35,261 nt of DNA, taken from the IMG/VR virus record IMGVR_UViG_3300035698_004819, positions 1-35,261 of that record; one strand, given 5' to 3'. The position numbers and the translations under genes are program-made. This document shows, in pieces, positions 4,949-30,451 of the stretch. The stretch comes from a virus. Numbering within the stretch: the stretch's first letter is position 1; each line of letters begins with the position of its first letter. The notes under the pieces were generated by a model. That model worked only from the letters and a program-made list of their open reading frames with translations. It was not told the origin of the DNA and ran no database searches.

Positions 4949-5560
4949 ATGTCAAATTTAACATTTAAAAATTCCAAGCATGGGGCGCAACTCGGAAACG
5001 ATTGCGGTGGCTTCATTACGGCTATTAATCACCCTTCGCTTGGTCTTTACGGCATGGAAGAATGGAGAGATATACGCGATCTAGTAGGCAGATACCAAGT
5101 ATCAAAATATGGCAACGTGAGAAGGATAAATAAAGACCCCCGTTGTAACAAGTATCGTTTATTTAGAAAACAACTAACACGAGATGGGTACGAATACGTC
5201 CATATTTTAAGAAATTACAGAAAAACAGTTCATAGATTAGTGGCTATCCATTTTATAAGCAATCCCAATTTCTGTCCATGTGTAAACCACAAAGACGGAA
5301 ACCCAGCCAATAATCATGTTAGTAATTTAGAGTGGTGTACACATAAACAAAATACTATTCATGCTAGGGATGTTCTTGGAACAGTTAAACCTCATAATAT
5401 AAAACCAATAGTTGATATAAAAACAGGAACGCATTTTAAAAGCATAAGGGAGGCTGCTGATATCCTTGGGGTTAATTATAAATATTTAGCGCATAAAGTA
5501 AAAAACAGGCACGATTTAACTAATTTTAGATATGCAGAAACATACGAAAATATATCTTGA
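4949..5560 (+). CDS. NUMOD4-HNH homing-type endonuclease
   Basis: A 203-residue free-standing endonuclease. Residues about 36-60 (MEEWRDIRD ... YGNVRRI) match a NUMOD4 module. Residues about 95-130 form an HNH_3-type domain: VHRLVA, then NHKDGNPANNHVSNLEW with the catalytic H114 region and metal ligands. Residues about 152-185 look like a NUMOD1 DNA-binding repeat (IREAADILGV). Such proteins cut DNA and spread their own gene by homing. The first 35 residues resemble no domain, and ATG 5054 is a plausible alternative start. It overlaps the next gene, another HNH protein, by 29 nt. Confidence 0.85.
   Translation: MSNLTFKNSKHGAQLGNDCGGFITAINHPSLGLYGMEEWRDIRDLVGRYQVSKYGNVRRINKDPRCNKYRLFRKQLTRDGYEYVHILRNYRKTVHRLVAIHFISNPNFCPCVNHKDGNPANNHVSNLEWCTHKQNTIHARDVLGTVKPHNIKPIVDIKTGTHFKSIREAADILGVNYKYLAHKVKNRHDLTNFRYAETYENIS
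4974..5043 (+). ncRNA. Structured RNA element at the 5' end of the HNH gene
   Basis: CCAAGC (4974-4979) can pair with GCTTGG (5038-5043) and close a domain. The domain contains a strong hairpin with stem CGCAA/TTGCG, continued past one bulged C by TCG/CGA, and capped by a GAAA tetraloop (about 4986-5005), plus a weaker GGTG/CACC pairing. The element overlaps the first 35 codons of the 4949 frame, which are not part of the recognisable protein domain. It may therefore be leader RNA, with translation starting at ATG 5054. Confidence 0.4.
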
Positions 5561-5765
5561 CCATTTTGGGTACTCTAAATTAGATATTGAGCATATTCCT
5601 TGTGAGGTTTGTGGTAGGGTGGCTAGGGATATACATCATATTAAGTATAAGTCTAGGGGTGGTAAGGACGAGATAGACAATCTTATAGCTCTTTGTCGCG
5701 ATTGTCATAACCTAGCCCACGATGAGAAGTTAAGTGAAACGGAATTAAAACTATATAAGAAATGA
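5532..5765 (+). CDS. Small HNH endonuclease
   Basis: A 77-residue HNH nuclease with a structural zinc site C24xxC27 and C55xxC58, the catalytic HH pair at 35-36 (DIHHIKYKSRGG), N50 and H59/H63: the complete ββα-metal core with little else. Proteins this short are either free-standing homing nucleases or phage HNH proteins that work with terminase; the latter usually sit beside the terminase genes, which is not the case here. It overlaps the upstream NUMOD4-HNH gene and is coupled by ATGA to the next gene. Confidence 0.8.
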   Translation: MQKHTKIYLDHFGYSKLDIEHIPCEVCGRVARDIHHIKYKSRGGKDEIDNLIALCRDCHNLAHDEKLSETELKLYKK

Positions 5766-9072: not shown

Positions 9073-9080
9073 TATCTTTG
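9073..9080 (+). promoter_or_regulatory. Promoter -7 box for the pseudoknot leader and HNH gene
   Basis: TATCTTTG at 9073-9080. Its predicted start near 9086 coincides with the first paired base of the pseudoknot-like leader, so the transcript would begin inside stem A. No TTTG is found at the -33 position. Confidence 0.65.
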
Positions 9081-9085
9081 TAGGT

Positions 9086-9182
9086 GAATACAACTACATA
9101 CTGATGACTACACAAATTAACATGGCTCCAACGTCGTTCCGCACTCCTTCGGTCTGTGGTTGTATTCCTTCGTTGGGGCCAT
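9086..9182 (+). ncRNA. Interlocking pseudoknot-like leader RNA
   Basis: Two long helices are interleaved. Stem A pairs GAATACAACTACA (9086-9098) with TGTGGTTGTATTC (9155-9167), 13 bp with one G-U. Stem B pairs ATGGCTCCAACG (9122-9133) with CGTTGGGGCCAT (9171-9182), 12 bp with one G-U. The order A-B-A'-B' is that of an H-type pseudoknot, with loops of 23, 21 and 3 nt. The second loop contains a further CCG/CGG hairpin. Stem B ends 12 nt before the HNH start codon. A 26-codon open frame (9122-9202) that begins in stem B and overlaps the HNH start could act as a leader peptide. I do not recognise a known riboswitch or ribozyme. Confidence 0.7.
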
Positions 9183-9194
9183 TACCATTTTATC

Positions 9195-9578
9195 ATGGCT
9201 AAGAAATCAGATTATTTTCAGAAGTTTAAAGACCCGCGCTGGCAGAAGAAGAGACTAAAAATTCTTGAACGCGACGATTGGTCATGTAAAGTATGTAGCT
9301 CAACAGACAAGACATTAAACGTGCATCATATTTTTTATGTTAACGACCACGATCCATGGGAATACCCAGACTGTATACTGACATCATTATGTGAGAGCTG
9401 CCATAAACAAATCCATGACATCGACCTGCTCCGTTATATCGCCTATATTGCTTTGTCTGGAAAAATTGACTGTGCTTGGGCGCATTCAGATATAGGGATG
9501 CTAATAAACACAATCTATTCAGCATATGGTATGGGTGAGATTAATTTGTCAGAGTTGCTAAAATCTGAAGCGGAATGA
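9195..9578 (+). CDS. HNH endonuclease
   Basis: A 127-residue HNH nuclease starting at ATG 9195; the open frame continues upstream to 9156, but that part lies inside the structured leader. Residues 14-27 form the usual entry helix (RWQKKRLKILERD). C31xxC34 and C66xxC69 make the zinc site, H44-H45 is the catalytic pair, and H70 completes the motif. A helical C-terminal extension follows. As in the two HNH genes near 5 kb, it may be a homing nuclease. ATGA overlap with the replisome organiser gene places it at the entry of the replication block. Confidence 0.85.
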   Translation: MAKKSDYFQKFKDPRWQKKRLKILERDDWSCKVCSSTDKTLNVHHIFYVNDHDPWEYPDCILTSLCESCHKQIHDIDLLRYIAYIALSGKIDCAWAHSDIGMLINTIYSAYGMGEINLSELLKSEAE

Positions 9579-10258
9579 ACGGACACATACGGCTTCATAG
9601 AAAGTTTATTGAGTGGGAATGGTTTAACGACTCTAGGAGTATACAATTATTTCTTTACATCCTTCTTAAAGCAAGCTGGAAAGATACTCCTTGGAGGGGG
9701 ATGGTTATCAGGCGGGGGCAACTTGTGTGTAGTGTGTCAACCCTGTCTAAAAACACTGGCATGACTGCCATGCAGGTCAGAACCAGATTAAGACAACTAA
9801 TAGATACAGGGGAACTTAACAAACAAACAACAAACAAATATACCATTATAACTATCTGTAAGTATGACGACTACCAATTCGTTGATGCAGAGGAAAAGCA
9901 AGTAGATAACAAACGAACAACAAACGAACAACAACATCTTAAGAAGGATAATAAAGAGATAATAACAAGTGTTATCAATTACCTGAATTTGAAAACAGGG
10001 AAAAAGTTCCGTCCATCTACAGGGGAAACGAAAAAATTTATAAACGGACGGGTAGCGGATGGATATACCGAAGATGATTTTAAGAAGGTTATAGATACGA
10101 AGTGTGCTGAATGGATAAACGGAGAGATGGAGCAATACCTACAACCATCGACGCTCTTTAAGCCTGCCAACTTTGAGAAATACTTTAATCAAAACCCTAT
10201 TAAGGGGGCAACCCAGCCTCCGCATGTTAGGACAATAAAAATCGACGACGATGACTGA
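9575..10258 (+). CDS. Phage replisome organiser / helicase-loader-like protein
   Basis: A 227-residue protein with the two-part plan of phage replication initiators. The N-terminal winged-helix region (HRKFIEWEWFND ... STLSKNTGMTAMQVRTRL, residues about 7-75) resembles the DnaD/replisome-organiser N-terminal domain. The C-terminal part (INYLNLKTGKKFRPST ... PSTLFKPANFEKYF, about 133-205) matches the conserved phage C-terminal domain TIGR02220. The linker is rich in Asn/Thr/Gln. It lies directly upstream of and overlaps the primase-helicase gene by 8 nt, consistent with loading that helicase at the phage origin. Confidence 0.8.
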   Translation: MNGHIRLHRKFIEWEWFNDSRSIQLFLYILLKASWKDTPWRGMVIRRGQLVCSVSTLSKNTGMTAMQVRTRLRQLIDTGELNKQTTNKYTIITICKYDDYQFVDAEEKQVDNKRTTNEQQHLKKDNKEIITSVINYLNLKTGKKFRPSTGETKKFINGRVADGYTEDDFKKVIDTKCAEWINGEMEQYLQPSTLFKPANFEKYFNQNPIKGATQPPHVRTIKIDDDD

Positions 10259-11987
10259 GATAAAAATAGCACTAAGGAAGTATTGGCTGTCTGGACTGAA
10301 GACATTACCTACAAAGCCAGAGAAGAATCCTGATGTAAAAGGAACATGGAAGGGTGGGATAAACGATTTAAACGCATACAATCATGGCATAGGAATTATT
10401 TGCGGTGAGGAGTCTGGAGGCATAGAGTGTCTGGATTTCGACAATCATTACGGCGAGTCGCAAGCTGTACTGTCTGAGTTCCTTACAGGGGAGGTGAAGG
10501 AGATATACGATAGGTATAAGCTGCCTATAGAGAAGACACTGAATGGAGGCTTTCATCTAGTATACAGATGTGATTTTGTTGGAAAGAACATTAAGCTAGC
10601 TGCTCACCCAAAGAAGGATAAGCATGATAAATGGATTCCTGACACTATCATAGAGACTCGTGGTGAGGGTGGCTATTTTGTTGCAGCCCCAACGGAGGGG
10701 TATAAGGTTATCAGGAATAGCTTAAACGATATAGCCAAAATAACAGAAGAGGAAAGAAGCATACTCATTGATAACGCCAAGGCTCTTAATACTTGGTATA
10801 CTATAGAAAAGGTAGAGCAGGAAAAGGGCGGTAGGCCGGGAGATATATATAATGAAAAAACCGAGGCGATACAGGATGTTAAGATGGCACTACAGGACGC
10901 TGGATGGGAAGAGGTTAGGGATCAGGAGTGGCGACGACCAGATAAAAGCACTGGTATTTCCGCTACGCTTGGGAGGGTGGATGATAGTATTTTCTATTGT
11001 TTTTCTTCAAGCGCATATCCATTTGATGCAAGCGCAGCATATACGCCATTCGAGGTAATAACATTATTAAAACATAATGGTGATTTCAAGGCATGTGCTA
11101 AGGAGTTAGCCGAAAGGTATTCTGATGATATGCCTAAGAAAGAAAACAGAGAGGAAAGGCTTCTGGGGGGAGCTGGAATAAAGCCACAGACCGAGAGTGA
11201 GCTTGAGGGTATATTAAGAAAGTCAAAGATTAATTTAGACATACCAATCAACAAGCCACCCGTGGTAATGGAAGTGAGAGATTACGATCTCCAAGGTTAT
11301 GAAAACAGAAGGCTATTCACCCTTGGTAACTTCTCCTGCATAACAGGTAAGAGTAAGAGTAAGAAGACATTCCTGACAAGCATGTTCCTTGCATCTGCTA
11401 CTTGTAACGGTATGGTAGAGCAGAAGTTCACATCCGACCTCCCTGATAACAAAAAATTCGTTGTCTTGTTTGATACGGAACAATCAGAGTACGACGCATA
11501 TACTACTGCAAGAAGAATACCTAGGATACTGGGTGCTGAAAATCCCAACTTCGCCGGGTTCGATCTTCGCGAATACACTCCTAGGCAGAGGTGTGAGATA
11601 ATAGATTATGCTATAAAGACATATAAGAACAACATAGGCTACATAGTGATAGATGGTATCGCGGATTTAGCTACGGCGATTAACGACGAAGAGGAGGCTA
11701 GCCGTGTGGTATCGCTGCTTATGAAGTGGACGAAGCTATACAACTGCCACATCACTACGGTAATACATCAGAACAAGAATGACAGCTATGCTACGGGGCA
11801 TCTAGGAAGCTCTATAATGAAGAAAGCAGAGTGCGTAATCTCTGTTAATAAGAGCGATACTGATAGGCGGCGTAGCGATGTCTCGTGTGATCTTATGCGG
11901 GGAGCCTCTGACTTCAATGACTTTGAGTTTGAGATAGATGATCGCGGTCTTCCGAGAATAGTCTCCATAGAAAATATACCATTTTAA
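10251..11987 (+). CDS. Bifunctional primase-polymerase / RecA-like helicase
   Basis: A 578-residue protein. The N-terminal part (residues about 1-180) is a Prim-Pol domain: GIGIICGEESGGIECLDFD at 46-64 with the catalytic acidic pair, and the RGEGGYFVAAPT segment near 137-148. The C-terminal part (about 325-578) is a RecA-fold ATPase: Walker A GKSKSKKT at 366-373, Walker B YIVIDGIADL at 464-473, and HQNKN at 506-510 as sensor. This matches phage primase-helicases that prime and unwind at the fork. A segment of about 90 residues (200-290) links the two. No separate DNA polymerase is in the window. Confidence 0.85.
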   Translation: MTEIKIALRKYWLSGLKTLPTKPEKNPDVKGTWKGGINDLNAYNHGIGIICGEESGGIECLDFDNHYGESQAVLSEFLTGEVKEIYDRYKLPIEKTLNGGFHLVYRCDFVGKNIKLAAHPKKDKHDKWIPDTIIETRGEGGYFVAAPTEGYKVIRNSLNDIAKITEEERSILIDNAKALNTWYTIEKVEQEKGGRPGDIYNEKTEAIQDVKMALQDAGWEEVRDQEWRRPDKSTGISATLGRVDDSIFYCFSSSAYPFDASAAYTPFEVITLLKHNGDFKACAKELAERYSDDMPKKENREERLLGGAGIKPQTESELEGILRKSKINLDIPINKPPVVMEVRDYDLQGYENRRLFTLGNFSCITGKSKSKKTFLTSMFLASATCNGMVEQKFTSDLPDNKKFVVLFDTEQSEYDAYTTARRIPRILGAENPNFAGFDLREYTPRQRCEIIDYAIKTYKNNIGYIVIDGIADLATAINDEEEASRVVSLLMKWTKLYNCHITTVIHQNKNDSYATGHLGSSIMKKAECVISVNKSDTDRRRSDVSCDLMRGASDFNDFEFEIDDRGLPRIVSIENIPF

Positions 11988-15123: not shown

Positions 15124-15293
15124 AAAAGTGCCCTACCTGTGGAGAGAGGAAAGATAAAAAGAGTTTCCTGTTTAAAGGCATAGAGCTTAAAGAGTGTAGG
15201 ACTTGTTATGACGATTGGAGAAAGCGTAACAAGCCGCCTAAAGTAAGAAAAAGGCATAACGAATATACCCTTGGTAACTTCGTGTGTTTCTAG
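15120..15293 (+). CDS. 57-aa zinc-ribbon protein
   Basis: A 57-codon gene starting at ATG 15120 in an ATGA overlap with the preceding stop. It has C4xxC7 and C26xxC29 in the order of a small zinc ribbon (CPTCGERK ... ECRTCYDDWRKR), followed by a strongly basic tail (RKRNKPPKVRKRH) suited to RNA or DNA contact. The pattern resembles short phage and HNH-associated zinc ribbons (KxCxxCxxxKxxxxF). It lies directly upstream of the structured RNAs and tRNAs; a role with them is possible but unproven. Confidence 0.7.
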   Translation: MKKCPTCGERKDKKSFLFKGIELKECRTCYDDWRKRNKPPKVRKRHNEYTLGNFVCF

Positions 15294-15295
15294 AA

Positions 15296-15420
15296 AATCG
15301 GAACCGCCTAATTTATAATTAATTAGCTGAACATATCTCCTCAGACGAGTATCCCTTTGGCGCTAGACAATTAGTGATTCAATTCTTTTAGCCGAGAACG
15401 CTTGGTGGTTCCGATTTTTT
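15296..15420 (+). ncRNA. Structured RNA closed by a 14-bp stem (terminator-like)
   Basis: AAATCGGAACCGCC (from 15296) is complementary to GGTGGTTCCGATTT (to about 15417) over 14 positions with one G-U, and the 3' arm runs into T residues. The enclosed 90 nt can form further hairpins: CTAATT/AATTAG (15308-15325), and ATA-CTC/GAG-TAT around an 8-nt loop near 15342. It looks like a structured 3' element whose outer stem also acts as an intrinsic terminator for the 12050-15293 operon. I cannot assign it to a known family. Confidence 0.6.
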
Positions 15421-15423
15421 ATA

Positions 15424-15431
15424 TAACTTTG
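15424..15431 (+). promoter_or_regulatory. Promoter -7 box for the tRNA locus
   Basis: TAACTTTG at 15424-15431 matches TAnnTTTG. It sits right behind the T run of the previous structured RNA, and the tRNA-Met-like RNA begins 9 nt downstream, close to the predicted start. The tRNA locus would therefore have its own promoter and an almost leaderless 5' end. TTGG near 15402 may serve as a weak -33 box. Confidence 0.65.
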
Positions 15432-15439
15432 TAAATTAT

Positions 15440-15508
15440 AGCGGGGAGTTCAAGTGAACCCTTTGTCTCATAAGCAAAGTTAGGAAGGAGCATTACCTTC
15501 TCCCGCTA
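15440..15508 (+). tRNA. tRNA-Met-like RNA (CAT anticodon), non-canonical
   Basis: A cloverleaf can be drawn: acceptor AGCGGGG (15440-15446) with TCCCGCT (15501-15507), anticodon stem TTTGT/GCAAA with loop CTCATAA (anticodon CAT, preceded by CT and followed by AA), and a T stem GAAGG/CCTTC. However, the T loop is AGCATTA instead of TTCRANY, and the D arm is GTTC-AAGT-GAAC without the GG pair. It may be a degenerate tRNA, a tRNA mimic, or a tRNA adapted to phage-specific use. CCA is not encoded. Confidence 0.55.
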
Positions 15509-15509
15509 C

Positions 15510-15635
15510 AAAACCGCATAAGCGAAAAAAGGTCGGATAGATAGCAGGGCGAGGTTGGGATGCAAGATAGTCTTAAAATCGACTTGAGCCACAAGAGCCT
15601 GCACTTAATGACCCCCAACAGCCTCTAGCGGTTTT
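15510..15635 (+). ncRNA. Structured RNA set between two tRNAs
   Basis: This 126-nt segment starts 2 nt after the tRNA-Met-like RNA and ends 2 nt before tRNA-Leu. AAAACCGC (15510-15517) pairs perfectly with GCGGTTTT (15628-15635), like a long acceptor stem. Inside, GCAGG (15543-15547) pairs with CCTGC (15598-15602), while GAGG-TTGGG (15551-15559) pairs with CCCAA and CCTC (15613-15626). These two helices are interleaved, giving a pseudoknot. Small hairpins such as CTTG-AGCCA-CAAG lie in the middle. It has no tRNA T arm and no recognisable tmRNA resume codon or RNase P motif. Tight flanking by tRNAs suggests release by tRNA-processing enzymes. Confidence 0.55.
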
Positions 15636-15724: not shown

Positions 15725-16084
15725 ATGAATGAAATAGATTTACATATCACATACACGCGAGGTTCCGGCCCCGGAGGTCAGCACAAGAACAAGGTGGAGA
15801 CGTGTGTTGTTATCACTCATATTCCTACGGGACTACATGAGAGATGTCAGGATACACGCAGTAAATCACAGAACCTAAAAATCGCCAAAGAGCGGTTAGA
15901 GAAAAAGATTCTTTTACATAAGGAGAGAGAACTACAGGAAGAGAATAACAAAAAAAGGATAGAGTTAATTCAGACTCAGAAGGTCATCAAGACCTACAAC
16001 TTCAATAGAGGTAAGGTGCATGACCACAGGAGTAAGGTGTCGCGGGATCTTAAGCGGGTGCTTAACGGAGAAATAGATTACTAA
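15725..16084 (+). CDS. GGQ-domain release-factor-like protein
   Basis: A 119-residue protein made almost only of the class I release factor catalytic domain: GSGPGGQHKNKVETCV with GGQ at 17-19, THIPTGLHERCQDTRSKSQN, and the later segment KTYNFNRGKVHDHRSK that matches the post-GGQ strand of RF1/RF2. The codon-recognition domains (PxT/SPF motifs) are missing. Such proteins (ArfB/YaeJ, PrfH) release peptides from stalled or damaged ribosomes without reading a stop codon. Its start lies 3 nt after the tRNA-Leu, so it is probably transcribed with the tRNAs. No RtcB ligase, the usual partner of PrfH, is seen here. Confidence 0.85.
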   Translation: MNEIDLHITYTRGSGPGGQHKNKVETCVVITHIPTGLHERCQDTRSKSQNLKIAKERLEKKILLHKERELQEENNKKRIELIQTQKVIKTYNFNRGKVHDHRSKVSRDLKRVLNGEIDY

Positions 16085-18843: not shown

Positions 18844-19510
18844 AAGAAAGTACAAAAATGAAGATGATAGAACAGAGTCAGGGATATACGTCATCACAGA
18901 CTCTTCATTCCGTCCCGCACTACACGCAGACCGCATCGCGGAGGTTGTTCTTGTACCACCCGGATTATTTTACCACTCAAACGAGGATCGTTCAGGAGGA
19001 GAATCCATGCCTTGGGACTGTGACATGGAACTTCGGGTAGGAGATACTGTGGTGCATACCTTCCTTGAGAGGAGCGACATCATTAACATCTTAGTAGATG
19101 ATGAGCCGGGGGAGCTGTATAAGCTAATGCCCTATGATGATATCTATGTAGCCCGCAGGGGTGATGAGATAATCCCGCTAAACGGATTTTGTTTATGCGA
19201 AGAGGTAGATAAGGAGCCTATGTCAAAGATACTAGATATCGTAGAGGAGGAGCCTATCAATAAAGACATTGGTAAGATTATCCATGTAGCCAAGCCCAAT
19301 AGGGAGTATAGGCGGTGGGATGCTCCTACAAAGAAGTTCTACGGAGAGGACTTGGATGGTGACCAAGAGTTAAGTGTGGGAGATATTATCGTTAAGAGAA
19401 GGGCTGATATCCATATAAGATTAGAAGAGGACATCCACTCTAAGTTCTTTGACAAGGAGGCAATGTATTTTATTATTCAACGTAAAGATATGATGGGGGT
19501 GAGAGTATGA
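18770..19510 (+). CDS. Protein with two GroES-like domains
   Basis: A 246-residue protein with two copies of the cpn10 pattern. The first half has NQVLVKRKY, SGIYV, RIAEVVLVPPG, LRVGDTVV and a closing YKLMPYDDIYVA (about 19-130). The second half has NGFCLCEEV, IGKIIHVAK, LSVGDIIVKRR and YFIIQRKDMMGV (about 137-244). In phages, GroES relatives such as T4 Gp31 replace the host co-chaperonin to help fold capsid protein in GroEL. A tandem version could form a ring of three or four chains. The mobile loop region differs from bacterial GroES. It overlaps the preceding gene and is ATGA-coupled to a glycosyltransferase. Confidence 0.65.
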   Translation: METISIESISQVKSLLSCRNQVLVKRKYKNEDDRTESGIYVITDSSFRPALHADRIAEVVLVPPGLFYHSNEDRSGGESMPWDCDMELRVGDTVVHTFLERSDIINILVDDEPGELYKLMPYDDIYVARRGDEIIPLNGFCLCEEVDKEPMSKILDIVEEEPINKDIGKIIHVAKPNREYRRWDAPTKKFYGEDLDGDQELSVGDIIVKRRADIHIRLEEDIHSKFFDKEAMYFIIQRKDMMGVRV

Positions 19511-20490
19511 AAGATCTAACAATTATTATTGCTGAGCACAACGAGGGCGATCAGCTTAAGGATACGGTAGAGAACCTATTGGCTACATCCGACAAGTCAA
19601 AGTACAATGTGATTGTTGTGAGCGATGGATCGGAGATAAAGCCTTCCATAGTTCCCGGTGTTAGGTACATAGAAACTCCTGTAAGGGGCGGTGTCGGTGC
19701 GGCATTTGATGTAGGAGCAGCTCATGTCGATACTCCTTACATGGTAATCATGGGCAGCGATATACGCTTTAGGGATAACGGTTACTTGGATAAACTTCTT
19801 GAGTATTTAAAGAAGAACCAGAAGTCTTTTATCTGCACAGCTAATATAGCTATCAATAAGGATAAGATGGATGTTAACGCCGACAACCTAATGATTAGGT
19901 ATGGTGCACGCTTGCTTCCTTTCCTAACAGCTAAAGACCTCCCGCCAAAAGGACAGAAGATGGGACAACTAAAGAGCGATAAGGCTGTGTCTAATTACAG
20001 GAATATTCTAGAAGCTAAATGGCAACCAAGACAGGAGGACGGCATATACGAGCTACCCTGTATCCTAGGTGCATTCTACGGAGTGTCTACTGCTTGGTAT
20101 AATCATGTCGGCGGATTCAGAGGGCATAGATTCTGGGGTACACTAGAACCTTTCATATCTCTCAAGTCGTGGCTTGCGGGCGGTGACTGTAAGATAGCTT
20201 CTGATATAGAGACGGCACATATCTTTAAGGCAAGATCATCACACGTCACTAAGCCTTGGGACTTGCTGTATAACAAACTGGCAGTCTCTAAGATCGTTTT
20301 CGATGACGAAGTGGCAGACAAGTTCATTAACTTCTTGGGTAACAACACTCACATGGAGGTAGCTAAAGAGATAATAAATCCTCATCTTGATATGATCCAT
20401 GCCTGTCGTTATAAATTCAGCAAAGTACAAGAGCGAGATATCTATTGGTTTAAGGAGAAATTTCCATTTAAAGATTACGACGTATTATAA
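19507..20490 (+). CDS. Family 2-type glycosyltransferase
   Basis: A 327-residue GT-A enzyme. The N-terminal strand and loop (LTIIIAEHNEGDQLKDTVENLL, split at IIIAEHNE and following helix), the sugar-nucleotide motif VIVVSDGS at 35-42, RGGVGAAFDVGAAH and the acidic motif VIMGSDIRF (metal-binding region) match GT2. A long C-terminal part with a WGTLEPFISLKSWLAGG segment resembles polypeptide GalNAc-transferase-like enzymes. It lacks membrane helices. It begins a run of seven sugar-related genes coupled by ATGA. Confidence 0.8.
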   Translation: MKDLTIIIAEHNEGDQLKDTVENLLATSDKSKYNVIVVSDGSEIKPSIVPGVRYIETPVRGGVGAAFDVGAAHVDTPYMVIMGSDIRFRDNGYLDKLLEYLKKNQKSFICTANIAINKDKMDVNADNLMIRYGARLLPFLTAKDLPPKGQKMGQLKSDKAVSNYRNILEAKWQPRQEDGIYELPCILGAFYGVSTAWYNHVGGFRGHRFWGTLEPFISLKSWLAGGDCKIASDIETAHIFKARSSHVTKPWDLLYNKLAVSKIVFDDEVADKFINFLGNNTHMEVAKEIINPHLDMIHACRYKFSKVQERDIYWFKEKFPFKDYDVL

Positions 20491-24334: not shown

Positions 24335-24914
24335 ACTCTGGAAAGAATTACAAGATCTAGAATGGGCTATGTATAAAGAATCCTCATTGGGAGTATTTTC
24401 TGTTGATGGAATAAAAGGAGCTGAGATGCTTGGAGCCATTTTGAACATGGAGATCCCCGATAAGCAGTGCTTGGATGTGGGGTGTGGCGCATTATCGTTG
24501 CCATCATATATGCGGGCAGCACCAGACGTTGAGTTCGTAGGATTAGACCCATACGACGGAGATGTGGATAAGGAATATACTTTCGTGCAAGGGTACGCAG
24601 AAGAACTCCCGTTCAAAGACAACTCTTTCGACGCTGTTCTTTTCGCAACCTCTCTTGACCATTTAGTAGACCCATACAAAGCCATCGGGGAGGCACGCCG
24701 AGTTACCAAAGAGTTCTTGTTTATCTGGACAAGCCTGAGACCAAACAATAGTCAATATAAGGAATGGATGAAGGCTGATAAGCCAGCACGTTATGATGAT
24801 TTCCACATGTGGGCGTTTACGTTTAACTCCATCCTTGAATTAATAGAAGAATTTACGTTATTAGATTTCACAAAGGTAAGACAATTTGAAGCAATATATA
24901 CACTAAAAATATGA
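24318..24914 (+). CDS. Class I SAM-dependent methyltransferase
   Basis: A 198-residue protein starting at ATG 24318 (an upstream TTG at 24306 is less likely). CLDVGCGALS at 51-60 is motif I for S-adenosylmethionine; VGLDPYD is motif II; AEELPFKDNSFDAVLFATSLDHLVDP is the motif of the Methyltransf_11 family (given in parts: ELPFKDNSFD, then LDHLVDP). ARRVTKEFLFIWT is the next strand. Such enzymes in sugar clusters methylate sugars or lipids. It overlaps the PP-loop gene by 17 nt and the epimerase gene by ATGA. Confidence 0.85.
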   Translation: MKSQNKLWKELQDLEWAMYKESSLGVFSVDGIKGAEMLGAILNMEIPDKQCLDVGCGALSLPSYMRAAPDVEFVGLDPYDGDVDKEYTFVQGYAEELPFKDNSFDAVLFATSLDHLVDPYKAIGEARRVTKEFLFIWTSLRPNNSQYKEWMKADKPARYDDFHMWAFTFNSILELIEEFTLLDFTKVRQFEAIYTLKI

Positions 24915-25807
24915 AAGCAATAGTAACAGGTGGTGCGGGCTTTATAGGATCGCATATAGCGGAACGTCTAATAGGAATGGGGATAGAAGTGACAATCTTC
25001 GATGATCTATCGGCGGGCAAGCAGGAGAATATTCCTAAAGGCGCATACTTTGCACATGCCGATATTTCAAACCCTAATGAACTTCTCCTTCACGAAGAAG
25101 AGTTTATTGATTGTGATGTTATATTCCATAACGCCGCGAGTAAAAAGAATATTTGTTTGACGAACCCGCGAAAAGATTTAAACGTAAACGGTGCAGGAAC
25201 ACTACTCTTATTACAACTAACAGAAAAACATAAAGTAAGAAAATTCGTTCATGCCTCAACAGGGTCGGTATATGGAGAGGTAGAAGGAGTTACTACAGAA
25301 TTGACACCAACGAGACCATCCAGTTTCTATGGCTCATCTAAGCTGGCGGGGGAGAATTATGTTAGGATATTCCATGAGTCTCGTGGCATTGATACGACTA
25401 TCCTAAGATACTTCCATGTATACGGTGACAGGCAGGAGAAAGACCAGAATTTAGGCGGCGTTGTAGCCATTTTTAAGGACAGGATAAAAAACGGGAAGTC
25501 AATATCCATTCATGGTAACGGCACACAGTCTCGTGTATTCACTCACGTCGACGATATCGTTGAAGCTAATATAGAGTCATGGATAAGCCCTATGAGTATA
25601 GGTCAGATATATAATTGCGCCTCACATGAGAGAACTACAATACGTAGCTTGGCTAATGAGCTAATGGATAAGTACGGTCAAGCACATATTGACTACAAGG
25701 ATTCATTAGAGGGTGACATATATGATTTCAATGTTGATAGCACCAAGATACAGACACAGCTCGGAATAAAATTCATCCCTTTCTCGGAAGGTATAAAAAT
25801 TTTATAG
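24911..25807 (+). CDS. NAD-dependent sugar epimerase/dehydratase
   Basis: A 298-residue extended short-chain dehydrogenase. TGGAGFIGSH gives the NAD-binding GxxGxxG at 7-13; D31-D32 at the end of the second strand chooses NAD; HNAASKKN is the usual HxAA motif; the catalytic set is S/T near 117 with Y140-x3-K144 (YGSSK). The RYFHVYGDRQ and GNGTQSRVFTHVDDIVEA segments are typical of UDP-glucose 4-epimerase and UDP-glucuronate epimerases. It probably supplies a nucleotide sugar to the glycosyltransferases upstream. It is the last gene of the cassette; a new promoter follows. Confidence 0.9.
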   Translation: MKAIVTGGAGFIGSHIAERLIGMGIEVTIFDDLSAGKQENIPKGAYFAHADISNPNELLLHEEEFIDCDVIFHNAASKKNICLTNPRKDLNVNGAGTLLLLQLTEKHKVRKFVHASTGSVYGEVEGVTTELTPTRPSSFYGSSKLAGENYVRIFHESRGIDTTILRYFHVYGDRQEKDQNLGGVVAIFKDRIKNGKSISIHGNGTQSRVFTHVDDIVEANIESWISPMSIGQIYNCASHERTTIRSLANELMDKYGQAHIDYKDSLEGDIYDFNVDSTKIQTQLGIKFIPFSEGIKIL

Positions 25808-26450: not shown

Positions 26451-27113
26451 ATGGAATTAAAAAAATTAGACACATCGCGGTTTCTCTATGACCCCACCGA
26501 TCCTGACCTTGTTCTTAAATTATCTAAGTTCGTAGAGTTTAAGGTCGCGCTAAAATCCTCTCTTAGCAAAAAGCAGGTTATACAATATATAATCCTTATG
26601 TACGATAAGAACAACGATGAGGTGCGTGCCGAGTACCCATTTTACCCACAGAGGAAGATAGAGGTTGCTCGCACAGTAGGTCTTGTGAAGCAACATAAAG
26701 CACCAAAACTTGTTGAGGACATTATGGTAGGCAGGAACGAGCTAGTCAATAAAATGATTGTTCGTTATCTTACTCTGTTTAATAATCCTGATCTCTTAAT
26801 GCTGGCATCCTATCAGCATATTTACATAAAACTAAATCAGCAATCTTTCTCTGGCGATTTTGACAGCAATACGATTAAGAATATTGAGAAGGTTAACACT
26901 TCTATAAAGGAGTTAACGGATACGATCTTTGGTGGCAAGGATGAGACTGAGTTACGTCAGGAGTTATATAAGAGCATAGAAGAGCAGTCTCTAGGTATTA
27001 AGCCTGAAGAGATAGCGGAAGCTATTCAGTCGGGTAAAGATCCGCTAGACAAGTTCTCTGCGTATGATGATGGGTATCTCCCCGATGAGTTGAAATATAT
27101 CTCCGACAGATGA
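26451..27113 (+). CDS. Putative small terminase subunit
   Basis: A 220-residue protein from ATG 26451 (a TTG at 26433 lies inside the promoter and is rejected). Mostly helical, with an N-terminal region (KKQVIQYIILMYD) that could hold a small DNA-binding fold, a central coiled-coil-like part (NTIKNIEKVNTSIKELTDTIF) suitable for oligomerisation, and an acidic end. No motif proves the assignment; it rests on position directly upstream of, and ATGA coupling to, the large terminase, and on suitable size. Confidence 0.5.
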   Translation: MELKKLDTSRFLYDPTDPDLVLKLSKFVEFKVALKSSLSKKQVIQYIILMYDKNNDEVRAEYPFYPQRKIEVARTVGLVKQHKAPKLVEDIMVGRNELVNKMIVRYLTLFNNPDLLMLASYQHIYIKLNQQSFSGDFDSNTIKNIEKVNTSIKELTDTIFGGKDETELRQELYKSIEEQSLGIKPEEIAEAIQSGKDPLDKFSAYDDGYLPDELKYISDR

Positions 27114-30100
27114 AAGGATACGTAGAGCACGATAAGAGTCTTATAGTGCATGAGGACGATCCCGATCTTACCCCTATACGTATAACTTTGCCCGAACCGC
27201 CGACACTCAAACTTATAGACGGATACGGGTTACCCTTTAAGGATCAGCGATTTAAGCGACTAGAGATTCCTGTCAAACTACAACGGCTTGAGCTTATTGC
27301 TTTAAGCAAGCTAGAGGAGAGGAAGGGTAAGAATAAGAATTTTGTTATCACCCGCTACAAGCTACAAAAACTATATTGGGATATCCTTGATACCCAGAGG
27401 GAGTATTATGCTCCTGAGATAGATTTCATAAAGAAGATGTGGTGGCATCGCCTTCATGGGTACTGGTTTTACAATCGCGGTAAGCCCACTTATATTTCTG
27501 GCTGGCATTTTATGTATCTCAACAACTGGTATATGCCCGATGTGACAGGAGGATACCCCGATTACAGGGATAGGGACAGGCAAGAATTTCTTATCCACCA
27601 GTACGCTTATACGACTACAGAAACATTTAAGAACTTATCCCCCGATGGTAACGCTCTGCGTAATCCTGATGGCACATACGATATGATCGACTTAGGTAAG
27701 CGTGTGTGTTACGGTCTGGGGCAATCTAAGAACAGGCGTAGTGGTAACACTAATAAAGGATTAAGCCTTGTCCTTGAGATCACATCACGAACCGTAGGTA
27801 CTGATGGTGGCGGTATCATGTCTTATACCGGGAATAACGCCGAGTCACATTTTAAAGGGAAACTTCTATTAGCTTGGAACAGATGGCCTGTATTTTTTAT
27901 GCCTATGACTACGAGCGGCAATAACCCTACTCACCTAAACTTCGGAGTAGAGGATAGTGAGTTCCGCCTAAAAGGATTACAGAACGGAATAGGATTCGCC
28001 TCAACATCTAACGCCAAGTTCTATGACGGACAAAAACTGATGGTGGCACTAATGGATGAAGAAGGAAAGTGTCATATCGCAGGAACATTGGTCAGGATGT
28101 ATGACGGATCGGTAAAAAAGATAGAGGATATTGTTATCGGAGATATACTAATGGGAGACGATAGCACACCGAGGAATGTGTTGAATCTTGGTCGTGGTCG
28201 CGGGCAATGCTATATGATTCATCCTAAAAAGGGGGAGCCATGGGGATGTAATGATAGACATATATTATCTCTGTATAGTTGCTATAATGCAAATACAAAG
28301 ATAGGGAAAGGCTATATGGATATCGACATGGACGCATATTTTTCCTTGACAAAGAATCAAAAGAGACACATGATGCTTTATCGTATTCCTGTAGAATATA
28401 AGGATAAAGATGTTTTGATAGATCCTTATTACATGGGGATGTGGCTGGGAGACGGGAGTAAGAATGATAGTGTTATCTATAATGTTGACAGTGAGGTAAC
28501 TGAATATGTAAAATCATATGCAGATATAATTAATGGTGTTTATGTTTTAAGAAAGAGCAAGGATCGAATAGACGGGCATGCTATTAGGTTTAATAAAGAC
28601 AGGAGTGCAAATAACAACAACTTAATTATAAGGTCTTTTAAGGAATATGGCGTATTCGAGAATAAACATATACCTAATGACTATCTAATAAATTCAAGGG
28701 AGAAAAGGCTTGAGTTACTAGCAGGAATTATTGATAGCGACGGGCATGCTAAAAAGGCGAAAGGTAATAGTCAGCAATACGAAGTAACGACTAAGATAAA
28801 AGAATTGTCAGAGAATATTCGCGATTTATCTTTAAGTTTAGGGTTCTGGTGTGGCATTGCAGAGAAGATTGCCACCATGAAGAGATCTGATGGCAGTATG
28901 TATAGCTGTTTAGTTTATAGGCTAACGATTTACGGGGACTTATATACCATACCATGTAAGATTAAGAGAAAGATATACGGTAAGCCATCTACTCATAAGA
29001 ATAGAAGAAACTCTAGACATTTTGGTTTTAGTACAGCAGACATTGGAGTACAGGATTACTATGGTATAATTATAGACGGAAATAGGAGGTTCTTATTATC
29101 TGACTATACGGTCACTCACAATACCGACGAGACCGACGTAGATGATAGATGGAAAGTTGTGTCTCAGTGCTTAAGTCAGGGAAACGGCGCTATCATTCAT
29201 GGATACGCTTATCACCCTTCTACGGTAGAGGATTACTCTAGTGGTGGGGCGGCATATAAGAAGCTTATTGAGAAGTCTTCATTCTATAACAGGATACGTG
29301 TTAGTGGTCAGACACCTTCGGGGCTATTCAGACTATTCATCCCTGCCGATGAAGCACTAGATGGATACATAGACAGCTACGGCATAAGTGTAAGAAAAAC
29401 ATTATTGGATTATCAGAAGGAGGAGGGATTTACTCAGACGGCTACCGAATACTTGCAGGGCATACGTGATTATTACACGAGCATGGGAACCCCTGAATCA
29501 CAGGCTGACTACCGCACACAGCAGAAGCTATTCCCTATGATCTACGCTGACTCTTGGCTAGGAGAAGCAGGAGATATAGGATACAACCTAGAGATTATAG
29601 ATACAAGGATCGCCGAGCTACAGAGAAAAAGCCGCACTGTTAAAGGAAACTTTAAGTGGGCTGGAGGAATATTTGGTGCACCCGTAGAGTGGGAGCAGGA
29701 TGATAACGGCAGGTTTAATGTCTCTAGGCTCTTCGAGGAGCGTGCTAATAAAAGGATCAGGGACACATACTTTGATCCTATTGAGATGGTGGAGAGGGAG
29801 ACTTGGATACCGCACGATCCTACCTTTGCTACGGCTGGTGCTGATCCGTTTAAGTTTAAGACATCCGCCGAAGTAAAGAAGAGCTATCAGAAGCATGGCA
29901 TGTCGGATGGAGGATTCCTTGTCCTCTGGGAGTATGATGAGCGCCTAGACGGTGATAAGCCGCGAAGCAAATGGGACTCCGATACTATTATTTGCACCTA
30001 CCGCTATAGGGCTAGCACCGATGATGAGTATTGTGAGGATATCCTTATGGCTAGCATCTGGTATGGCTGCATGGTATACCCGGAGATGAACATCTCTACC

Positions 30101-30451
30101 GTACAGAAGAAGTTTCGTGAGTGGGGATATTCAGGATATCTAAAGCATGATGTATCTGCTGACGGGGTAATGAAAGCTGAGCCCGGATCACACATGATGG
30201 CTGGATCTAAGCAGGAAGGGTTCTCTCTGTCAAGAGATTTCATCAGCTTTAGGGGTCACAAGATAGACCATCTTGACATACTCATGGAGTGTAAAAATAT
30301 TAAAGCTATAGAGGAACTGACTGACTATGACCTGCTTGCCAGCTTCCTTGTAGCGCTACTAGGATCGCGGAGCAAGTTCTCAAAGATTATGAAGCAGTCC
30401 TCCGAAGCGTCCGTAGATGTATCAGGTATTATGAAGATGATGAACTATTAA
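27110..30451 (+). CDS. Terminase large subunit interrupted by an intein
   Basis: A 1113-residue precursor. Exteins of 320 and 442 residues make a 762-residue terminase. The N-extein carries an atypical Walker A (GLGQSKNRRSGNTNK, near residue 205) and ends in the Walker B strand MVALMDEEGK, where the intein sits. The C-extein goes on with TDETDVDDRW and the RNase H-like nuclease domain: AGADPFKFKTSAE with a first metal-binding Asp, and DYDLLASFLVALLGS with a late Asp. The enzyme packages DNA into the prohead and cuts it. It is longer than common terminases (about 500-600 residues). Confidence 0.88.
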   Translation: MKGYVEHDKSLIVHEDDPDLTPIRITLPEPPTLKLIDGYGLPFKDQRFKRLEIPVKLQRLELIALSKLEERKGKNKNFVITRYKLQKLYWDILDTQREYYAPEIDFIKKMWWHRLHGYWFYNRGKPTYISGWHFMYLNNWYMPDVTGGYPDYRDRDRQEFLIHQYAYTTTETFKNLSPDGNALRNPDGTYDMIDLGKRVCYGLGQSKNRRSGNTNKGLSLVLEITSRTVGTDGGGIMSYTGNNAESHFKGKLLLAWNRWPVFFMPMTTSGNNPTHLNFGVEDSEFRLKGLQNGIGFASTSNAKFYDGQKLMVALMDEEGKCHIAGTLVRMYDGSVKKIEDIVIGDILMGDDSTPRNVLNLGRGRGQCYMIHPKKGEPWGCNDRHILSLYSCYNANTKIGKGYMDIDMDAYFSLTKNQKRHMMLYRIPVEYKDKDVLIDPYYMGMWLGDGSKNDSVIYNVDSEVTEYVKSYADIINGVYVLRKSKDRIDGHAIRFNKDRSANNNNLIIRSFKEYGVFENKHIPNDYLINSREKRLELLAGIIDSDGHAKKAKGNSQQYEVTTKIKELSENIRDLSLSLGFWCGIAEKIATMKRSDGSMYSCLVYRLTIYGDLYTIPCKIKRKIYGKPSTHKNRRNSRHFGFSTADIGVQDYYGIIIDGNRRFLLSDYTVTHNTDETDVDDRWKVVSQCLSQGNGAIIHGYAYHPSTVEDYSSGGAAYKKLIEKSSFYNRIRVSGQTPSGLFRLFIPADEALDGYIDSYGISVRKTLLDYQKEEGFTQTATEYLQGIRDYYTSMGTPESQADYRTQQKLFPMIYADSWLGEAGDIGYNLEIIDTRIAELQRKSRTVKGNFKWAGGIFGAPVEWEQDDNGRFNVSRLFEERANKRIRDTYFDPIEMVERETWIPHDPTFATAGADPFKFKTSAEVKKSYQKHGMSDGGFLVLWEYDERLDGDKPRSKWDSDTIICTYRYRASTDDEYCEDILMASIWYGCMVYPEMNISTVQKKFREWGYSGYLKHDVSADGVMKAEPGSHMMAGSKQEGFSLSRDFISFRGHKIDHLDILMECKNIKAIEELTDYDLLASFLVALLGSRSKFSKIMKQSSEASVDVSGIMKMMNY
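28070..29122 (+). other. LAGLIDADG intein inside the terminase
   Basis: A 351-residue in-frame insertion (precursor residues 321-671). It starts with Cys in CHIAGTLVRMYDGSVKKIEDI (first 20 form block A: GTLVRMYDGS), has a block B-like GCNDRHIL with the conserved His, two endonuclease motifs (MGMWLGDGS and LAGIIDSDGHA), block F-like YYGIIIDGNRRFLLSDYTVT and the terminal His-Asn, followed by Thr as +1 residue. All splicing residues are present, so it should self-splice. It lies exactly behind the Walker B acidic residues of the ATPase, a conserved site often used by inteins. Confidence 0.9.

Follow-up and report, generated by a model that had tools for sequence, protein, structure and literature searches.

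Recurrent interleaved RNA helices at the 5′ end of phage replication operons, a possible cis-acting gate

What does a pseudoknot do at the very start of a transcript whose first gene encodes an HNH endonuclease? The question is raised by the virus record IMGVR_UViG_3300035698_004819, whose 35,261 bases (the whole stretch analysed, here called the window) carry at 9086-9182 two helices, A/A′ and B/B′, interleaved in the order A-B-A′-B′. TAnnTTTG −7 boxes, together with the relatives of the record, point to a Bacteroidota phage. An initial annotation of the window had described the two helices as a selected RNA structure in the HNH leader that might gate translation of the enzyme or sense a ligand. 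Its coordinates, helix lengths and strand order were all verified (Table 1): A/A′ comprises 13 bp and B/B′ 12 bp, each with one G-U pair, and B′ ends 12 nt before the HNH ATG. From the promoter box TATCTTTG, the transcript is predicted to begin at 9086 or no more than a few bases away, in line with the start at the first base of A that had been claimed. Two features were absent from that annotation: helix A gains 5 more bp past one mismatch, reaching 9104/9149, and a leader open reading frame (ORF) crosses the fold and overlaps the HNH start.

The helix pair is far from what the base composition of the leader would give. A/A′ ranks top among the inverted repeats of the whole window, and the combined helix energy of −45.0 (energies are simple stacking sums) was unmatched in 4000 dinucleotide shuffles of the leader (0/4000; best shuffle −33.5). 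Conditional on hairpin B, the A:A′ pairing alone reached p about 0.007. An interleaved pair just as good turned up somewhere in 1 of 40 shuffled whole windows, so the convincing point is where this pair sits, with the promoter on one side and the start codon on the other. The A-only and B-only folds were equally stable (−25.6 vs −26.0 kcal/mol).

The layout recurs well beyond this locus. Viral and genome contigs with HNH relatives supplied 163 leaders, non-redundant at 90% identity and still partly related, which we searched for helix pairs with non-overlapping loops and helices. Results showed an interleaved pair adjoining the start codon in 65 of the 163 phrog_119 HNH leaders at p ≤ 0.05 (about 8 expected) and in 45 at p ≤ 1/151 (about 1 expected). 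Control starts, taken from the other genes of these loci, matched at p ≤ 0.01 in 13/350 intergenic cases and 1/350 cases of tight spacing, and several of these matches were themselves the same layout before other genes. Pairing was stronger on the sense than on the complement strand in 52 leaders and weaker in 20, which favours RNA over DNA repeats; a count of G-U against A-C suffers from a bias through helix selection that this comparison avoids. The usual arrangement begins with the promoter and the 5′ strand of A, followed by an A-rich linker, hairpin B with A′ in its loop, often a U-run, and the first gene. Helix and loop sizes vary widely across leaders (helix A, 5-19 bp), with 50-80 nt between A and A′ of one RNA, and the fold is very stable in many leaders. 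On the sequence evidence, the element is a recurrent RNA layout of which the window is one example.

Covariation was strong within one family. Alignment A5 holds nine related HNH leaders (L318, L210, L302, L173, L293, L188, L284, L290 and L180). Each forms two hairpins whose 7-nt loops are complementary, the first at the 5′ side and the second within a terminator-like stem; the kissing pairs are compatible with both hairpins. In this alignment 97.1% of the cells were paired, 17 of the 23 pairs showed two-sided changes, and the kissing pairs covaried at 6 of 7 positions. The covariation score was 0.624, compared with 0.213 in shuffled alignments (0/500) and 0.097 in the best slid register. Near-identical leader pairs (L126/L258, L123/L087, L116/L152, L068/L139 and others), some with structures placed by hand, had A strands 69% and A′ strands 67% identical, next to 71-72% for unpaired linkers, 85-86% for B/B′ and 91% for the gene or ORF start, and their changes in A and A′ compensated each other so that pairing was kept. 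Unconserved pairings, or breaks without compensation, which the initial annotation had named as the outcome that would refute it, were not seen in the relatives tested. Its view of a selected RNA structure at the transcript 5′ end is thus borne out by recurrence of the layout in unrelated leaders, the sense-strand bias and the covariation within this family.

The element goes with the replication operon rather than with the HNH gene. In the window, HNH, DnaD-like and primase/helicase genes overlap in one operon of three. Among cultured phages the element was found in Cellulophaga phages phi46:3, phi19:3 and phi18:3 and in Flavobacterium phages elemoF/E and 11b. It precedes an annotated HNH gene in phi46:3, whose leader is 98.7% identical in phi19:3 and phi13:2; the gene after this leader in phi19:3 is DnaD-like, judged from its sequence and position (it is annotated as hypothetical). 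In elemoF and 11b the element precedes small ORFs at the front of the replication genes. Phage phi18:3 has a 40-nt promoter region in common with the phi46:3-type leader and both helices swapped: A is CTTCTGAC/GTCAGAAG and B is CCCTATAA/TTATAGGG followed by a U-run, in the same order and before replication genes. These helices were read directly from the sequence, the automatic scan having made no call because B′ lies farther from the gene start. The window's relatives L012 and L013 carry the same layout, with its own −7 box, directly before a DnaD-like gene. Whole-contig scans gave about three elements per genome, with different stems and downstream genes, in the phages of L012, L161 and L066, and only the one at 9086 in the window. 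The idea that the element belongs to the HNH enzyme, as first annotated, is therefore not supported, and gating is a reasonable idea for the whole operon and not for that enzyme alone. Two more HNH genes lie at 4949-5765 of the window, one of them with NUMOD4; a TATCTTTG box is located 5′ of them, without the pseudoknot layout.

The surroundings of the helices are also organised. Of 77 leaders, 15 had TAnnTTTG no more than 35 nt 5′ of A, against 1.0 expected, and 18 had a sigma70-like promoter at most 25 nt from A, against 5 expected, so A is usually at the transcript 5′ end. An ATG was found close to the end of A in 45/72 leaders. Of the frames so opened, 33 extend into B′, where 14.7 would be expected, and 25 have their stop codon between −12 and +15 relative to the main start, against 4.1 expected. 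Indels shift the leader-ORF frame between relatives (phi46:3 vs phi19:3, L318 vs L173), yet it stays open, so selection may act on translation and not on the peptide; a conserved leader peptide was rejected on these frame shifts, and the amino-acid sequence seems unimportant. A U-run stood at the end of B′ in 33/65 significant leaders vs 1/36 non-significant ones. Several leaders (L105, L146, L169, L203) have their Shine-Dalgarno (SD) sequence, where there is one, 3′ of both B′ and the U-run. The frame through the pseudoknot was also seen fused in-frame to the downstream gene, in L126 (3004), L110 (3001), L094 (2998), L161 (1501) and L224 (317).

We propose, with roughly even confidence for and against, that the element would act in cis as an RNA gate, placed after the promoter and controlling access to the replication operon (HNH - DnaD-like - primase/helicase) from its first gene on. 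The proposal draws directly on the helices, their recurrence, the covariation in relatives, promoter placement, the open leader ORF that ends at the first gene in a large part of the set, the U-run in about half of the leaders and the operon association. While being transcribed, the leader would have two fates. A ribosome could start on the leader ORF just after A, cross B, A′ and B′ and hold the fold open, finish at the start codon of the first gene and be able to restart there. Should no ribosome come early enough, the A′ segment of the hairpin B loop would pair with A at the 5′ end and cover the leader-ORF start, and B:B′ would form beside the start of the first gene (HNH in the window), blocking entry into the operon. 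The block would be premature termination where a U-run follows B′, as is likely in many leaders, and a translation block elsewhere. We infer the competition of two states, termination at the hairpin and ribosome loading as the input.

Several observations weigh against this gate. The loop of hairpin B paired with the upstream strand beyond shuffles in 22/102 leaders at p ≤ 0.05, conditional on B, an enrichment that is only modest per leader, and the main weight therefore lies on covariation. That covariation was observed in relatives by layout and not in orthologs of the window leader itself: the phage collection searched held no DNA relatives of this leader, single-protein scans by HNH or primase gave no match, and a portal scan gave only one 25%-identical locus. 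Nested and side-by-side helix pairs, examined to control for topology, likewise showed enrichment in these leaders, for which the strength of hairpin B on its own is the probable reason. The leader ORF was missing in 27/72 leaders by the ATG criterion (28/72 by a looser one) and, by inspection, in phi18:3. SD sequences before the leader ORF were only mildly enriched (9/44 vs 11% background), for which reason an SD hidden within A was rejected. In the window, intrinsic termination is doubtful because the U-run is weak and begins several nt past the B stem.

The same features could serve regulation in trans. The terminated leader would then be an antisense RNA whose loop A′ pairs with A of sibling transcripts and shuts the operon, for dosage sensing or superinfection immunity, in the manner of P4 CI RNA or IsrK. 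We see this as the main alternative, though with a low probability. In A5, A and A′ are both 7-nt hairpin loops and fully complementary, the classic intermolecular kissing form; near-identical relatives differ in A/A′ and not in the flanks, the pattern that a specificity element would give, and A/A′ also differs among the elements of one genome; the U-runs would release a short RNA, and IsrK does work in trans. Against it, with A and A′ so close on one RNA, cis pairing is kinetically favoured, and A′ is as variable as unpaired loops, which compensated drift or module exchange also explains. A tyrosine integrase was found on only 3/50 contigs, many of them fragments, so lysogenic immunity is not the general role, and temperate-phage immunity as such a role was rejected. 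A wider version, which we hold to be rather unlikely, would make these leaders a broad class of phage RNAs: the terminator hairpin would carry in its loop the antisense of the RNA's own 5′ end, and leaders released by termination would work in trans on sibling transcripts. Every early operon, of which a genome has several, would have its own orthogonal feedback channel, and related phages would differ in the specificity of immunity or dosage sensing. The position at the transcript 5′ end and the great stability in many leaders would equally suit a passive element, a fold without switching function that shields the start of the mRNA from RNases or simply reduces expression. We judge this improbable, as it leaves unexplained the ORFs that stop at the main start, the U-runs after B′ and the need for pairing between the loop and the 5′ strand.

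Other explanations fare worse. Hairpins at the start sites of stand-alone homing-endonuclease genes have been described (PMC3014915), and the element does precede phrog_119 HNH genes in many phages, so the fold might cover the site where ribosomes bind on a homing-endonuclease message, as happens for mobE of phage Aeh1 and segB of T4. This is very unlikely: phi19:3, L012 and L013, where the same leader or layout precedes DnaD-like genes, largely refute it, and in many leaders B′ lies upstream of the SD, not over it. Inverted repeats near a promoter can bind proteins, and the helices could in principle be operator sites or cruciforms in DNA. Sense pairing with G-U beats the complement strand, the elements lie downstream of the promoter and repeat sequences differ between elements of one phage, all of which make a DNA-level role highly improbable. 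A pseudoknot with a terminator-like hairpin is a common riboswitch layout. Ligand sensing, the other role first suggested for the window element, nevertheless has very little to recommend it, because no conserved unpaired nucleotides were seen across the set and both helices change freely; helix and loop sizes vary, and Rfam gave no match.

On the preferred reading, of a gate acting in cis, it would be common for phages to regulate access to their early operons by a self-complementary 5′ end, with a probable link to translation. A recurrent RNA gate would front replication operons in phages with Bacteroidota-type and with sigma70-type promoters. The element appears unlabelled so far because its sequence is unconstrained, to which sequence searches and existing covariance models are blind. 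Rapid turnover of A/A′ under strict pairing raises the question of cis drift or trans specificity, and the presence of the element in cultured phages makes the gate idea testable now.

Table 1 Coordinates of the leader element and of the operon genes in the window
Feature	Position	Strand	Remark
Bacteroidota-type −7 promoter box TATCTTTG	9073..9080	+	
Helix A, 5′ strand	9086..9098	+	at or next to transcript start; continues past one mismatch to 9104
Leader ORF, 32 codons, MTTQINMAPTSFRTPSVCGCIPSLGPLPFYHG	9104..9202	+	second in-frame ATG at 9122; stop overlaps HNH start by 8 nt
Helix B, 5′ strand	9122..9133	+	hairpin B is the predicted minimum-free-energy structure without pseudoknots
Helix A′, 3′ strand	9155..9167	+	within loop of hairpin B
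Helix B′, 3′ strand	9171..9182	+	
U-rich spacer TACCATTTTATC	9183..9194	+	weaker and farther from stem than U-runs in many relatives
HNH endonuclease, first operon gene, phrog_119-like, 127 aa	9195..9578	+	
DnaD-like replication initiation/helicase-loader gene	9575..10258	+	overlaps HNH stop
Primase/polymerase-helicase gene	10251..11987	+	

Elsewhere in the window, positions 15285-15425 form a strongly folded RNA (z −4.1) with a closing stem of ~17 bp and then a T-run; it is intergenic, lies before a tRNA gene, has no Rfam match and is a candidate non-coding RNA. At 15439-15509, just 3′ of a TAACTTTG box, there is a cloverleaf tRNA-like fold with a CAU anticodon loop and non-canonical D and T loops, on which ARAGORN made no call and which is possibly a tRNA mimic. 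A closed structured stretch (AAACCGC...GCGGUUU) at 15511-15632 directly precedes tRNA-Leu, and at 15725-16084 an RF-1 domain protein (GGQ motif, PF00472), release-factor-like or a ribosome-rescue protein, adjoins the phage tRNA genes. An intein that carries a LAGLIDADG homing endonuclease splits the terminase large subunit (27110-30451). A glycosyltransferase family 2 gene (19507-20490) and a nucleotide-sugar epimerase gene (24911-25807) suggest phage-encoded sugar metabolism. The related contig L057 carries at 1027-1496 an array of many self-complementary TTTTGCTTAGGCAAAA repeats, which are not part of the element.

Comparison with known RNAs gave no identity. Rfam 15, including HEARO, C4, riboswitches and ribozymes, had no match in the window, in 18 related loci or in the G030 contig, and none at an E-value ≤ 5 on the leader; group I introns, HEARO and other Rfam families were rejected accordingly. 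The sequences CUGAUGA (9101-9107) and GUC (9152-9154) recall a hammerhead, but GAAA and stem II are both lacking, the register is offset by 2 nt, and the motif is missing from most other leaders, so it was rejected as chance. Ribozymes like that of hepatitis delta virus have a 7-bp P1 at the cleavage site and a catalytic C in J4/2. The element has only their strand order; its A helix ranges from 5 to 19 bp, the A′-B′ junction in the window is CTT and there is no conserved core, and this candidate was rejected too. HEARO and the IscB omegaRNA are likewise structured RNAs upstream of a gene with an HNH domain; the HNH protein here, however, is far shorter than IscB, and non-HNH genes also follow the leader. 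The start-site hairpins of I-TevI, mobE and segB (PMC3014915) resemble the element as RNA structures upstream of a phage nuclease gene. Unlike them, it belongs to an operon and contains long-range pairing to the 5′ end; the structure is not nuclease-specific in phi19:3, L012 and L013, and in several leaders the nuclease SD lies 3′ of B′ rather than paired within the hairpin. It resembles trp-type leader-peptide attenuators in an open leader ORF that may be translated, in structures proposed to compete and in a terminator-like hairpin. In contrast to these, no amino-acid-specific codons were noted, the ORF runs through the putative terminator to the gene start, and a pseudoknot or kissing loop takes the place of overlapping alternative hairpins: A, B, A′ and B′ are separate segments, which the search required, and not mutually exclusive hairpins.

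The layout was undescribed in the literature searched, though many journals lay outside that search. Phage P4 CI RNA and P1 C4 RNA carry variable specificity sequences. Like the element, these RNAs (seqA/seqB/seqC in P4 CI; c4-a1b1 in P1 C4, RF01695) are phage operon leaders with self-complementary segments, in which a structured RNA exposes an antisense segment. They differ in being processed, trans-acting and in need of further targets, and C4 had no match here. In P4, termination occurs prematurely before the replication genes, as summarised in PMC4825925, where IsrK is compared with the P4 CI RNA. The nearest described arrangement is the IsrK-orf45-anrP region of Gifsy-1 (PMC4825925). IsrK activates in trans, its order and sequences differ, it is not repeated several times per genome, and PMC4825925 does not describe it as a pseudoknot of a 5′ strand with a terminator loop. 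On the proposed reading, the likeness lies in an own promoter, a short structured RNA ending in a terminator, a read-through mRNA, an inhibitory RNA structure and a small ORF translationally coupled to the next gene. Self-complementary variable leader segments, the feature of the P4 CI, P1 C4 and IsrK type, are present in the element described here.
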